A DNA stretch of 33,125 bases from Parvibaculum sp. (GTDB lineage: Bacteria > Pseudomonadota > Alphaproteobacteria > Parvibaculales > Parvibaculaceae), in NCBI RefSeq assembly GCF_030694575.1, contig NZ_JAUYUS010000057.1, positions 1-33,125 of the forward strand, read 5' to 3'. The position numbers and the translations under genes were made by a program. The notes beneath the pieces are model-generated. The model worked only from the letters and a program-made list of their open reading frames with translations, ran no database searches and was not told the origin of the DNA. This document shows, in pieces, positions 27,438-33,021 of the stretch (its first letter is position 1; the number at the start of each line of letters is the position of its first letter).

Positions 27438-27761
27438 ATGCCTCTCATCAAATATATCGAAGCGAATGGAACGGAATATGCCGTGGAGGCCGAAAGCGGC
27501 ATCTCGGCGATGGAAGCCGCGGTGAAGAACAACGTGCCCGGCATCGACGGCGATTGCGGCGGCGCGGCCGCCTGCGCCACCTGCCACGTCTATGTCGATC
27601 CGGATTGGATCGGGAAGACAGGCCCGGCGGCGGAGGGCCTGGAGAAGAGCATGCTCGAATTCGCCGAAGACGTGCATGAGAACAGCCGCCTCGCCTGCCA
27701 GATCACGCTTAACGACGCACTTAACGGACTGGTCCTGAAGCTGCCGGAGAAGCAGCACTAA
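27438..27761 (+). CDS. [2Fe-2S] ferredoxin, partner of the P450
   Basis: The product has 107 residues, starting at an ATG behind GAGGAAA. Its cysteines C40, C46, C49 and C87 (the pattern [15 protein letters not shown], then RLACQITL) are those of putidaredoxin/adrenodoxin-type ferredoxins, which pass electrons to bacterial P450s. The gene follows the CYP153 gene by 11 bases, so the two are translated from one message. Its own terminator, at about 27787, has been split by the mobile element. Confidence 0.95.
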
Positions 27762-27786: not shown

Positions 27787-27806
27787 AAAAGGGAGGCCGC
27801 GAGGCC
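27787..27806. terminator. Left half of a terminator split by the mobile element
   Basis: AAAAGGGAGGCC-GCGA-GGCC is the first arm, loop and inner 3' arm of a hairpin. Its missing part (TCCC and seven T residues) lies at 31056-31066 beyond the element. Rejoined, the hairpin has a 12-bp stem with a GCGA loop and T runs on both strands. As it stands, no T run follows on this side. Confidence 0.85.
27795..27806. repeat. Target-site duplication, left copy
   Basis: GGCCGCGAGGCC is repeated in the same direction at 31044-31055. The true duplication may be shorter, because the GGCC next to the inverted repeats is itself a palindrome: lengths of 12, 10, 8, 6 or 4 fit with terminal repeats of 25 to 29 bases. 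Confidence 0.8.
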
Positions 27807-27831
27807 CAGCCGTTCGGGTAACTGGTGGTTT
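27807..27831 (+). repeat. Left terminal inverted repeat
   Basis: It is a 25-base perfect match to the reverse complement of 31019-31043; the match extends to 29 bases if the adjoining GGCC is counted. It begins CAGCCGTTCGGG and ends GGTGGTTT. Confidence 0.93.
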
Positions 27832-27838
27832 AATGGGG

Positions 27839-27867
27839 AACACTATGGCTACATAGTGTTTGTAGCC
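27839..27867. other. Two mutually exclusive hairpins next to the left end
   Basis: AACACTATG/CATAGTGTT (27839-27847, 27852-27860) is a perfect 9-bp stem. GGCTAC/GTAGCC (27847-27852, 27862-27867) uses part of the same bases, so only one can form at a time. The position, eight bases inside the terminal repeat, could matter for transposase recognition or for an RNA made from this end. Confidence 0.6.
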
Positions 27868-28063
27868 GTAAGGATCTCTACTGTTGGTTGTGTGAAGCCC
27901 TAGAAACTAGTGGTTGCTAAGGGGGTAAGGGGTTAAGGACGTTCAATTTGAGGCTCTGCCAAGGTTTTCTGGGTCACCGCCTCAAACCTTGATACCTTTA
28001 TCGGTTCGACCTATATTTTTGCTTGAGACGCGACCCAAGAGATTGGGCTGCCTTCGTTCCGAG

Positions 28064-28083
28064 GCCCACGCGAAAGCGTGGGC
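28064..28083 (+). terminator. Hairpin with GAAA loop, possible inward terminator
   Basis: GCCCACGC-GAAA-GCGTGGGC is a perfect 8-bp stem, followed on the plus strand by TTTCGCGCTTCTT. The T run is interrupted, so termination is less sure than for the hairpin at 28395. Confidence 0.5.
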
Positions 28084-28394
28084 TTTCGCGCTTCTTACAT
28101 AATCCTTTTCCTGGTTCTATGTGGGTATGCGCCGCGCCTGTCTCTGACCATTCTTGATATTGCTGTTATTTACCAAGTGTTTAGATCTATTTTCCATGGC
28201 GGCCGTTACCGCGTTTCTCTTGACTTTTGCTCTTGCCACTGCCATGTTGTTTCTACCGGTGCAGATCGACTGAGGCTTTGTGGAGCCTATTTTAGGTAGC
28301 AAAGCTGATAGCACTGGGGTCGTTGAGCGCATGCGTTCAATCACTTGCCTAGAGCTGTGGGCCGAAAGGTTTGACATTAGTCGAGGAATTACTC

Positions 28395-28425
28395 GGGGGA
28401 GACGAAAGTCTCCCCCTTATTTTTT
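28395..28425 (+). terminator. Intrinsic terminator on the plus strand inside the element
   Basis: GGGGGAGAC-GAAA-GTCTCCCCC is a perfect 9-bp stem followed by TTATTTTTT. There is no T run on the minus strand, so it acts on plus-strand transcripts only, though no plus-strand gene is seen upstream inside the element. Confidence 0.88.
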
Positions 28426-28497
28426 GGAGCAAGATCTCTCCTCTGGCCAACGGGACATTGGAAACTGTTTTTAGTCGCTCGGCTGAAGCATGCGACT

Positions 28498-29043
28498 CTA
28501 AAAATAACGCTCTCCATTCCATGTAAGCTCTGCGACCTTTCCAAATGGCATATTTTTAATGATGCCGACTCTCTCTCCTCGCGGATATGCGCTTTCTACA
28601 TATAAGTCGAGAGGTAGGAGTTCGTCTCTCAAATTCTCATGCGGCTTCTTCAGGGTAAAGAAGCAGCAGTATCTTTGTTGCGCACCGTGCTCCGGCGATA
28701 TGTAGATTTGGAATGTGTGCCAATTTCTCTTGGTAGTAGTGAGACCGACAGATGTTCCTGGCTTTTTGATTAGGCCGTCGATGATACCAACAAGCATTGA
28801 TGTGCATGAGTGTCTCTCGGGACAGAAAACCCTCAGTGGATTTTCGCCGACCGTCACGTCGTCATCGGCTTTGATATCAGGTAATTTAATTTCACGCGAA
28901 ATACAATGATCGCTGAAGCGAACCCTGACACTAAAAGTAACTGTAGTGTCTTCTCGGGTTCTCCAAGCGAAAGTCTTAAACGACTGCCTAAGATGGCCAA
29001 GCTCAAAAATTTCTCCACGATAGGAAATGTCCCGAATATCCAT
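28498..29043 (-). CDS. Unknown 181-aa protein carried by the mobile element
   Basis: The product has 181 residues from ATG 29041-29043; a TTG 12 bases upstream is possible. No named domain is recognised. The spaced phrases VRFSDHCISREI, RVFCPERHSCTSM, RNWHTFQIYIS, CCFFTLKKP and LDLYVESAYPRGE resemble an uncharacterised bacterial family that I have seen with an HCxxR motif and an SAY motif, without a known role. There is no signal peptide or membrane segment. It lies 56 bases downstream of the transposase-like gene, probably on the same transcript, and is more A/T-rich than it. It may be a transposition helper, a regulator or cargo. Confidence 0.75.
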   Translation of the reverse strand: MDIRDISYRGEIFELGHLRQSFKTFAWRTREDTTVTFSVRVRFSDHCISREIKLPDIKADDDVTVGENPLRVFCPERHSCTSMLVGIIDGLIKKPGTSVGLTTTKRNWHTFQIYISPEHGAQQRYCCFFTLKKPHENLRDELLPLDLYVESAYPRGERVGIIKNMPFGKVAELTWNGERYF

Positions 29044-29099
29044 GAGCGCCCACAAAAAATAGAATGCTCAAAAGTATATACGACCAATCGTTCTCCATT

Positions 29100-30914
29100 T
29101 CACTCTCTCTTTGGTGTCCAGTAAATGATGTCCTCAAATCTAACGGGCCCCTTCGCCAGACCGAACTTCACCGCCGGCGTGCTCTTGCCGTCTTTCGTGC
29201 GGACGTAGTTCGTATAGACACGGAATATCTCAAGCATCTGTAGAACCCGCTTCGGGTCGTAGGCGTGATAGCCGCTCCAGAGACGGCTGGCATTCGAGCG
29301 CGTGGGGATGGGGCGCTCCAGATAATTGATTTTCCTCCGCAGGCGCATGAAATAGTTGTCCACCGGCGCAAGCGTCGCGCCTGCCAGCGTCCATCCGATA
29401 CGCTCCGGAGTCTTGTTGCCGGTATTGGTCAGATAGAGAATACGGCGCATCGGCTCGTTTATCGTGCTGCGGGGGTGAGATATCCAGCGCTTGCGCCAGT
29501 CGGGTTCGCCTGAAACGGCCGCCGCATACTCATTCGCCATGAATTTCACGATTGCCGCCTGCTCCGTATCGCCGGAAGCGAGCGCGAGCGAGGCAACGAC
29601 CTTGTTGGACTTGCGCATCAGGTCCTTCTTCTCATCGATGGTCATCTGCTTCTGGAACTGGACATAGGCCATTTCGGCTTCTTCCATCAGAATCTTCGGT
29701 GCGAAGGCGGAGATGAAGGCGGCGCGGAGGACTTCGTCCTGGTCGCAGTAGATGGTTGCGTATCTGGCGCCCGAGACGAAGCGGCGAACCAGCCTGGCAT
29801 GCGCATAGGCCGTGTAATCGAGATGCGTCATCACACCATCGGGCGACAACTGATTTTTCCTGCCAGGCAAGTCCGGACGCTCCGGGTCAGGCAAGGCGTT
29901 CTCCCAACGGCTCTTCGCGGCAATCAGTTCGTCCACCGTCATTTCTTCGCCATCGAAATTCGGACGAATATCCGTTCTCGATTTTCCGGCCATCCGCTCG
30001 AATTCGGCATTGAGCCAATATTGCGATTGGGCCCGGAAGTAGCTTCGCCTGTCGGGTGCGAAATCGCCATTTACGGCCGCGGCGTCTTCGACCTCGGTCT
30101 GGTTTATATCGGGGTCGAAGTTGAGGTGATGACCGAGCACATATCCGCTATCGGCTTCCACCGTACAAATAGCGGTGAGCTGAATGTTTTTCCGGGCTGA
30201 CTTGCTGCGCCAGTTTATCATGTAGTCCTGCCGGTCGACGCAGAGCCGCACGCGCTTTCTCTCGATGCGATGGGCACGGCTCTCGCGCTCGCCGGCGAAC
30301 CCTCGGCACTGGCGATAGAGAAAGTCGAGCTTGTCATAAACGGCCGCCGCCGAAAGACCCGTTACTTCCATGATGCCGCGGAGCGGCTTCTTCGACACGA
30401 CTTCGGCAAAGACAGTGCGATTGAAATGCGGCACCTTCTGCCGCACCGTCGACTTAATCGTTACCGAGAAGGTTCTCCGGCAGGCCTTACATCTGAACCG
30501 CTGGGCCCCGCCGCGGCTTCCCTGCGAGACATAGGCTTCCGGACGGGAATACACGCCGGCGCCGGCGTTCTCGCAGCCCGGCGCCTGGCACGATGGCTCT
30601 GGCCGCGGCTCCAGATAGGCGGAGATGCGAGACAGCTCCGCGGCGATTGCCGCATTGCTCTTGATTGAGTGTGTTCGAAGGCACCGCTTACATTTGAGGA
30701 AGCTGTCCGGCGCCAACTTCGCTTCACCGGTCAGAACATAGTCATCCCGTACTGCCGCCGTGCCCGACGATGGGCGACCTCTGGGAACGAATGGCCTTGC
30801 CGGATTGCCGAAATTCGAACAGGTGGGATTGCGGCAGGAATTGACCTGGATATCCCGGAAAGCGCCGGGAATCCGGGGCATACCAGATGTTGATTTCCGT
30901 CCCTGCCCGGCCAT
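29100..30914 (-). CDS. Putative transposase with duplicated zinc-finger module
   Basis: The product has 604 residues from ATG 30912-30914 (GTGAGG site). The N-terminal 150 residues hold two similar modules: C27-x4-C32 with C75-x2-C78, and C109-x4-C114 with C142-x2-C145 (SCRNPTC/SCQAPGC and LKCKRC/FRCKAC). A helix-turn-helix-like stretch follows at about 165-200 (LRGIMEVTGLSAAAVYDKL). A DDE-like core is suggested by D227 in RLCVDRQDYM, D391 or D393 in ATIYCDQDEVLRAAF, and D519 in LAPVDNYFMRLRRKINY. The last phrase recalls the HNxxLR region of IS1-type transposases. The overall order (zinc ribbon, HTH, DDE core) fits IS1 and IS1595 relatives, but this protein is about twice the usual length, so the family call is tentative. 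Confidence 0.75.
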   Translation of the reverse strand: MAGQGRKSTSGMPRIPGAFRDIQVNSCRNPTCSNFGNPARPFVPRGRPSSGTAAVRDDYVLTGEAKLAPDSFLKCKRCLRTHSIKSNAAIAAELSRISAYLEPRPEPSCQAPGCENAGAGVYSRPEAYVSQGSRGGAQRFRCKACRRTFSVTIKSTVRQKVPHFNRTVFAEVVSKKPLRGIMEVTGLSAAAVYDKLDFLYRQCRGFAGERESRAHRIERKRVRLCVDRQDYMINWRSKSARKNIQLTAICTVEADSGYVLGHHLNFDPDINQTEVEDAAAVNGDFAPDRRSYFRAQSQYWLNAEFERMAGKSRTDIRPNFDGEEMTVDELIAAKSRWENALPDPERPDLPGRKNQLSPDGVMTHLDYTAYAHARLVRRFVSGARYATIYCDQDEVLRAAFISAFAPKILMEEAEMAYVQFQKQMTIDEKKDLMRKSNKVVASLALASGDTEQAAIVKFMANEYAAAVSGEPDWRKRWISHPRSTINEPMRRILYLTNTGNKTPERIGWTLAGATLAPVDNYFMRLRRKINYLERPIPTRSNASRLWSGYHAYDPKRVLQMLEIFRVYTNYVRTKDGKSTPAVKFGLAKGPVRFEDIIYWTPKRE

Positions 30915-30946
30915 TCTGCCTCACGAAGATTTCTTCGCGATCCAAT

Positions 30947-30980
30947 GAAAAGCGGGACAGCCGCCAAGTGGCTGTCCCGC
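30947..30980 (-). terminator. Inward-facing terminator-like hairpin before the transposase gene
   Basis: GCGGGACAGCC/GGCTGTCCCGC is a perfect 11-bp stem (30952-30962, 30970-30980), followed on the minus strand by TTTTC. It stands between the right end of the element and the transposase start, so it would stop transcripts coming from ftsH, and perhaps dampen those of the transposase itself. Confidence 0.75.
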
Positions 30981-31021
30981 CTGTCACTTTAGACAGAGTT
31001 TCAGGATTGTTCTACCTGAAA
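30981..31021. other. Two further hairpins at the right end
   Basis: CTGTC/GACAG (30981-30996) and TTTCAGG/CCTGAAA (30999-31021) follow directly on the larger hairpin, the second running into the right terminal repeat. Three stems in a row in 70 bases suggest a structured end, as a transposase binding region or leader RNA. Confidence 0.55.
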
Positions 31022-31043
31022 CCACCAGTTACCCGAACGGCTG
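31019..31043 (-). repeat. Right terminal inverted repeat
   Basis: It is the perfect reverse complement of 27807-27831 and ends CGAACGGCTG. Confidence 0.93.
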
Positions 31044-31055
31044 GGCCGCGAGGCC
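31044..31055. repeat. Target-site duplication, right copy
   Basis: GGCCGCGAGGCC, identical and in the same direction as 27795-27806. Confidence 0.8.
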
Positions 31056-31066
31056 TCCCTTTTTTT
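31044..31066. terminator. Right half of the split terminator
   Basis: GGCC-GCGA-GGCC followed by TCCC and seven T residues. With the AAAAGGGA now at 27787-27794 it forms the original bidirectional terminator of the ferredoxin gene and ftsH. For ftsH the hairpin now lacks its second arm beyond GGCC, so its transcripts would read into the element. Confidence 0.85.

Positions 31067-31095: not shown

Positions 31096-33021
<1,926 letters not shown>

Follow-up and report, generated by a model that had tools for sequence, protein, structure and literature searches.

IS1397, IS621 and other elements insert in REP/BIME palindromes, which are intergenic and form a repeated sequence family. Group IIC introns are retroelements that use terminator stem-loops and insert beside the stem, and IS1 makes target duplications of about 9 bp. 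For IS1272/TnSha1 (IS1182 family), passages of Furi et al. 2016 (PMC4923244) describe entry into hairpins that have no primary-sequence consensus, with 5 of 7 sequenced targets being terminators by RNA-seq. According to that paper, insertion is blunt and deletes part of the hairpin, no target duplication is formed, and a cargo gene can be carried. In the case of the ISAjo2 group of the IS1202 family, passages of PMC10132070 give a TnsB-like transposase of 441-457 amino acids (aa), terminal repeats of 24-26 bp with ends 5'-TGT..ACA, and dif-site targets, with a 5-bp duplication 5 bp from the dif site. ISDol1, in the ISNCY groups of ISfinder, is mentioned in a passage of PMC8147514. Here we describe a transposable element in a 33,125-nucleotide contig of Parvibaculum sp. 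(NZ_JAUYUS010000057.1, assembly GCF_030694575.1; the whole stretch is called the window), which lies inside a terminator hairpin, together with its relatives. We are highly confident that these are cargo-carrying DNA transposons, with a zinc-ribbon and probably DDE transposase, of a family that prefers the hairpins of intrinsic terminators.

An element inside a terminator hairpin

In the window, the 12-base direct repeat GGCCGCGAGGCC is found at 27795-27806 and 31044-31055, and a perfect 25-bp inverted repeat at 27807-27831 and 31019-31043. Once the flanks are joined again, the site reads AAAAGGGAGGCC-GCGA-GGCCTCCCTTTT; both strands have T runs, and the genes on either side, ferredoxin-like and ftsH-like, are convergent. 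For the window alone, the palindrome leaves duplications of 8, 10 and 12 bp indistinguishable. Two relatives, L019 and L022, have 12-mers whose outermost bases differ between left and right, with the inner 10 identical. The duplication is therefore 10 bp and the element spans 27806-31044, with terminal repeats of 26 bp after the boundary shift. The 12-bp duplication given in the first-pass annotation was rejected on this comparison of copies (8-10 bp in the family). The element is complete once in the window genome, and an Rfam search found nothing.

A search of 27 genomes of the genus with the ftsH-side flank matched 25 of them. Genome G013 holds the natural empty site of the window, with 540 of 630 bases (86%) identical in an alignment through the junction of the rejoined sequence. 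Its hairpin is uninterrupted, AAAAGGGAGGCT-GCGA-AGCCTCCCTTTT, with one compensatory change of a C-G pair to T-A. Genome G001 holds the empty site of another relative, L018, where 661 of 690 bases are identical and the hairpin junction has no difference at all.

As for the 24 orthologous loci, 13 have both ferredoxin and ftsH and 11 are without one or both genes. A GGGAGGC..GCCTCCC hairpin, with varied loops, stands directly after the ferredoxin gene in all 13 assessable loci (5 scored by script, 8 judged by eye from the sequence). Since both empty sites and orthologous loci carry the hairpins, these belong to the host, and that of the window is a conserved structure.

The palindromic flanks could instead be part of the element, acting as its own terminators at its ends. 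Flank and terminal repeat in the window do form one 56-nucleotide (nt) inverted repeat. But the flanks differ among copies while the terminal repeats are alike, and the natural empty sites hold the hairpin without the element, so this explanation is refuted. The empty sites match the reconstruction and confirm what the first-pass annotation had proposed, that the element splits a bidirectional terminator lying between two convergent genes, ferredoxin and ftsH. Its view that the duplicated bases are the inner stem and loop was also borne out, with the duplication centred on the hairpin.

The ferredoxin-ftsH region itself varies in length. The stop-to-stop distance is 563-1420 bp in 8 of the 13 orthologues (L125, L131, L133, L137-L141), against 66-86 bp. 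A second GCCTCCC-type hairpin is present at the far end of the enlarged gap in L137 and L141.

Insertion sites of the relatives

Ends and flanking repeats were sought around 39 relatives, window included. This gave 22 rejoined sites, one element characterised unjoined (L120) and 16 unconvincing cases. The inverted ends of the relatives match at 14-22 of 22 bases. The duplication measures 10 bp throughout the window clade and 8 bp in L115, with 9 or 10 bp in the other elements. Most elements (16 of 22) start with C(N)AGCC, and the ends of the window element read CCAGCC. The rejoined sites are located in Pseudomonadota, in Desulfobacteraceae and on one Bacillota plasmid, with transposase identities down to 21%.

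Stems were scored with 3 for G-C, 2 for A-T, 1 for G-T and -3 for a mismatch, with a cut-off of at least 20. A hairpin passing it has its centre within 2.5 nt of the duplication centre at 16 of the 22 rejoined sites (window, L018, L019, L020, L021, L028, L060, L062, L064, L070, L103, L105, L107, L112, L113 and L115), and within 0.5 nt at 13. The background, for centres within 5 nt, is 6359 of 182,087 positions (3.5%), or 303 of 14,201 (2.1%) outside open reading frames (ORFs) of 120 aa, and the enrichment has a binomial P of 1.2e-22. Hairpins within 2 nt that also have a T or A tract (T or A at 5 or more of 8 positions) are found at 15 of the 22 sites, window included, versus 0.33% of non-ORF positions. 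The hairpin of L064, 2.5 nt off centre, fails the 2-nt tolerance and passes the wider one. Despite its weak ends (14 of 22 bases, an 8-bp repeat, not the top-scoring pair), L115 was kept on account of their likeness to the ends of L112, from the same genome; leaving it out gives 15 of 21.

These numbers bear on the idea of near-random insertion, in which only between-gene copies survive, in space rich in terminators near gene ends. The window site does lie between convergent genes, the ORFs on either side of L022, one TetR-like and one autotransporter-like (both named by eye), are convergent too, and 10 of the 22 sites are outside stop-to-stop frames of 100 aa. We moved each insertion randomly by up to 100 nt from its own place in 200,000 simulations, a control that is independent of the ORF mask. 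Within 3 nt of such a hairpin, 0.80 of 22 insertions are expected and no simulation passed 6, against 16 seen; within 1 nt, 0.30 are expected with a simulated maximum of 5, against 13 seen. Survival does not explain such exact centring on the loop, and this account is strongly disfavoured.

Several observations weigh against the preference for terminator hairpins, or against the wider reading given at the outset. Six of the 22 rejoined sites fail. Four of them (L065, L066, L067 and L108) have no hairpin of score 20 or more at the site, L066 adjoining IS66 genes, and L114 has a short one, CCCC/GGGG, of score 16. L022 has no hairpin at the exact place; in its orthologous empty region in G023, a hairpin folds a few bases to the right, so the insertion may have narrowly missed a hairpin, or the site may have decayed. 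Moreover, 12 of the 22 sites, that of the window among them, are inside a stop-to-stop frame of at least 100 aa, a test that is over-inclusive in G+C-rich DNA, as is the ORF mask; gene context was checked for few sites. Between-gene placement is established for few of the 22 sites. The 22 elements were drawn from protein searches of a limited genome sample, degraded copies included, and the transposition activity of the family is predicted. Sequence may also contribute to recognition, since A is enriched at pairs 9-12 of the 16 hairpin sites (0.99-1.33 bits). The predicted structure of the transposase is unusable, with a mean predicted local distance difference test (pLDDT) score of 40, and neither supports nor excludes a DDE triad. 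Lastly, a search of 16 further relatives gave no convincing ends (L023, L024, L025, L026, L029, L030, L068, L069, L071, L101, L102, L104, L106, L109, L110 and L111).

Weak candidate ends were dropped as chance in L102, L104, L024, L025 and L029 (14 of 22 bases, near-repeats of 8-12 bp) and in L104, L106, L110, L025 and L029 (11-12 of 18 bases), because second-best matches of equal quality adjoin the true ends in other loci. L024, L026, L102, L104 and L106 form a supported group, two of them in the genus of the window, and the search found convincing terminal repeats in none of them.

The first-pass annotation had suggested, from one case, that palindromic terminators are chosen as targets. With 16 of 22 insertions centred on hairpins against 0.8 expected, the suggestion is supported as a strong preference, which is not absolute because six sites fail. 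The proposed rejoining of other copies thus turned out both ways, with most sites in hairpins and also, at 6 of 22, the copies without palindromes that had been named as refuting the idea. That insertion avoids harm to genes is plausible, with the terminator itself being split by the element.

Target recognition

Across the 16 hairpin sites, pairs 1-10 are complementary at 94-100%, partly by construction as sites were picked by score. Each of the inner eight columns has an information content of 0.12-0.75 bits, with a small-sample bias of 0.14. Palindromes of differing sequence resemble each other little while they are plain duplex, and for this reason the transposase probably reads the fold, perhaps with an A-tract component.

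We propose that the transposase would recognise folded DNA, either a cruciform or a single-stranded hairpin, rather than a sequence. The strands would be cut 9-10 bp apart, symmetrically about the dyad axis of the hairpin, with catalysis by D227, D391 and E533. Each flank would then keep one outer arm, and the loop with the innermost stem would be present twice. Such dyad-symmetric cuts would be in keeping with a transposase complex of two-fold symmetry bound to a cruciform. The likely benefit would be landing in gaps between genes, which exist in any genome and are therefore compatible with a wide host range.

A different route would rely on RNA, with paused or terminating RNA polymerase, or an RNA hairpin, bringing the transposase to terminators in place of any DNA structure. 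RNA polymerase pauses at the T tract of a terminator, and the 15 sites with both a hairpin and a T or A tract have what such a route needs. The cut is symmetric and has its centre at the loop instead of the T tract, which makes this route unlikely.

Alternatively, a symmetric transposase dimer could bind a degenerate, dyad-symmetric duplex, with a G+C core between A and T tracts, and without any folding. Dyad-symmetric complexes are usual for DDE transposases, and the A-rich outer stem positions agree with it. The low information of the inner eight columns and the A+T-rich core of L020 speak against it. It is only weakened by these, since the high complementarity is partly by construction, and we consider it improbable next to recognition of the fold.

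Transposase and family spread

The window transposase had no match above cut-off in Pfam. With the NCBIfam IS1 model it scores 26.4 bits (cut-off 100), over residues 129-199 only, and with an IS1-type zinc-ribbon domain 24.1 (cut-off 28). A set of 17 aligned members, called A3, gives a broader picture: all 17 match the NCBIfam IS1 model at E ≤ 0.1 (best 6.6e-12), and 16 match the IS1/IS1595 zinc-binding model. Transposases of the family have about 570-650 aa. A candidate DDE triad consists of D227 and D391, which all 17 aligned members share, and E533, which is kept in at least 90%. In a search of solved structures, the best 60 of 186 matches were all zinc-finger proteins, mostly at profile positions 105-157, and were read as matches by chance or composition.

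The closest named relatives are in a Parvibaculum metagenome-assembled genome and in an unplaced alphaproteobacterial one. Counting the window's own genome where it was searched, relatives at E ≤ 1e-20 are present in 8 of the 290 nearest genomes and 15 of 398 genomes of the phylum, several of them partial, and four relative loci were found in genome contigs. Searches by order or class at E ≤ 1e-40 matched 2 of 78, 17 of 247, 2 of 244, 8 of 195 and 2 of 240 genomes, where 12 of the 17 are shorter homologues from family f188. In terms of plasmids, 123 records match (85 Enterococcus and 9 Staphylococcus), and 2 phage records do. A scan of viral contigs gave 104 pattern matches and no relative.

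The tree has 27 rows, 19 of the 22 rejoined elements and 8 without ends; L028, L112 and L115, whose transposases are short or broken, were omitted. Copies in hairpins and copies elsewhere are intermixed, with 6 label changes versus a shuffled mean of 5.3, and the neighbours L065 (no hairpin) and L103 (hairpin) differ in site. The most distant row, a copy on a Pontibacillus plasmid, is hairpin-inserted; its branch is long and its placement unsure. The simplest reading is that hairpin insertion is an old habit of the family with off-target insertions, rather than a recent invention.

The homologues L071, L077-L087 and L089 have an open frame of 493-526 aa, with one match per genome in 12 genomes of f188. 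On a Photobacterium replicon, a 493-aa homologue adjoins a purine nucleoside phosphorylase-like gene and seemingly lacks D227 (both by eye), and a single search for ends around it found none. This 493-526-aa homologue is possibly a domesticated transposase. Within one order, the transposase frame contains a single in-frame stop codon (TAA or TGA) in 4 of 8 matching genomes (L103, L104, L105 and L106). Finally, the window genome has a fragment of a second transposase of the family (G000:C39:35275-35587), with 79% protein and 89-92% DNA identity.

Cargo

At least one extra ORF of 90 aa or more lies beside the transposase in 18 of the 22 elements. L060 carries a D12-type methyltransferase and a NotI-like nuclease, L114 an Eco57I-like methylase and a BsuBI/PstI nuclease, L062 a DNA methylase and L113 a type IIG-like enzyme. 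HipA is found in L028, which has no more than a transposase fragment, NYN/HEC-09 in L019, a helix-turn-helix protein in L018, DUF6338 in L107, and PEP-CTERM proteins in L112 and L115. The cargo of the remaining elements has no match or sub-threshold family matches, and the cargo protein of the window no match in Pfam, NCBIfam or PADLOC (Table 1). The cargo often resembles phage defence genes (L060, L114, L062, L113, L028, L019, L018), and among these elements only L114 has a weak target hairpin.

On the Listeria innocua plasmid NZ_CP071158.1, L120 has a transposase relative and dfrG inside one pair of ends. These ends match at 22 of 22 bases; the repeat measures 10 bp, and the two flanks are complementary to each other at 22 of 30 positions. 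Between 94 and 99 plasmid records of Enterococcus and Staphylococcus match a similar query, with mostly one identity value among the matches listed. A dfrG unit on Tn5801 is cited in a passage of PMC4923244.

Table 1. Features of the window around the element and its target.
Feature	Position	Strand	Basis
Transposable element, 3239 bp	27806..31044		Perfect terminal inverted repeats, flanking direct repeat, natural empty site in sister genome
Left terminal inverted repeat, CCAGCCGTTCGGGTAACTGGTGGTTT	27806..27831	+	Related repeats in relatives
Right terminal inverted repeat	31019..31044	-	
Left copy of 10-bp target duplication, GCCGCGAGGC	27796..27805		
Right copy of 10-bp target duplication, GCCGCGAGGC	31045..31054		
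Interrupted terminator hairpin, left arm, AAAAGGGAGGCC	27787..27798	+	Uninterrupted in G013
Interrupted terminator hairpin, right arm, GGCCTCCCTTTT	31052..31063	+	Uninterrupted in G013
Transposase, 604 aa, IS1-like zinc ribbon, candidate DDE residues D227, D391, E533	29100..30914	-	Low-confidence model
Cargo ORF, 185 aa	28498..29055	-	29% identical to cargo ORF of the G013 copy
Terminator-like hairpin within element, then TTATTTTTT	28395..28416	+	Pattern match only
Ferredoxin-like gene, upstream of target terminator	27438..27761	+	Name from first-pass annotation; orthologues found
ftsH-like gene, convergent with ferredoxin gene	31096..33021	-	Name from first-pass annotation, fits sequence by eye; orthologues found

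Significance

We lean, with moderate confidence, towards a wider picture of an unnamed family of Pseudomonadota, Thermodesulfobacteriota and Bacillota, in which a DDE transposase would read the shape of extruded hairpins and open the loop symmetrically. Terminators would serve it as a universal safe harbour, and the elements would be vehicles for resistance genes as well as for genes of defence (restriction-modification, HipA). Since relatives contain restriction-modification genes and, on a Gram-positive plasmid, dfrG for trimethoprim resistance, the target rule bears on the spread of such genes.

A single striking insertion thus becomes a testable rule, that of a probably DDE-type family which targets folded terminator DNA almost to the base and leaves the target complete. 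It may offer a route to placing cargo between genes in nearly any bacterium. Cruciform formation at terminators in cells also becomes directly testable.

Comparison with known systems

The closest likeness in target is to IS1272/TnSha1 as far as the passages cited above describe it: hairpins without sequence consensus, mostly terminators, and an ability to carry cargo. In contrast to it, the present family has a 9-10-bp duplication centred on the loop and no target loss. None of the 10 NCBIfam families that the 17 A3 proteins match is an IS1182 model, the presence of such a model in the library being unchecked and no direct comparison with IS1272 made.

The family has a candidate N-terminal zinc ribbon resembling that of IS1 and IS1595, with weak matches in 16-17 of 17 members and the window protein below the domain cut-off. 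However, the window transposase misses the NCBIfam IS1 cut-off and is about three times the 199 positions of that model. The ISAjo2 group of IS1202, within the cited passages, is similar in its large transposase, the length of its terminal repeats and its special target class, but differs from the window element with its CCAGCC ends, 604 aa and a 10-bp duplication inside the target.

Elements that target REP/BIME also use palindromes, but the hairpins entered by the present family share little sequence. Group IIC introns are alike in using terminators, whereas the present family consists of DNA transposons that insert in the loop.

Membership in IS1, IS1182 and IS1202 fails on at least one tested feature each, and single members may be listed in ISfinder. 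Among the listed titles and abstract openings of the open-licence literature, we recognised no description of the family or of terminator-loop insertion that forms a duplication. Insertion in terminator hairpins is already known; the present family differs in the duplication that results and, as far as tested, in the transposase.

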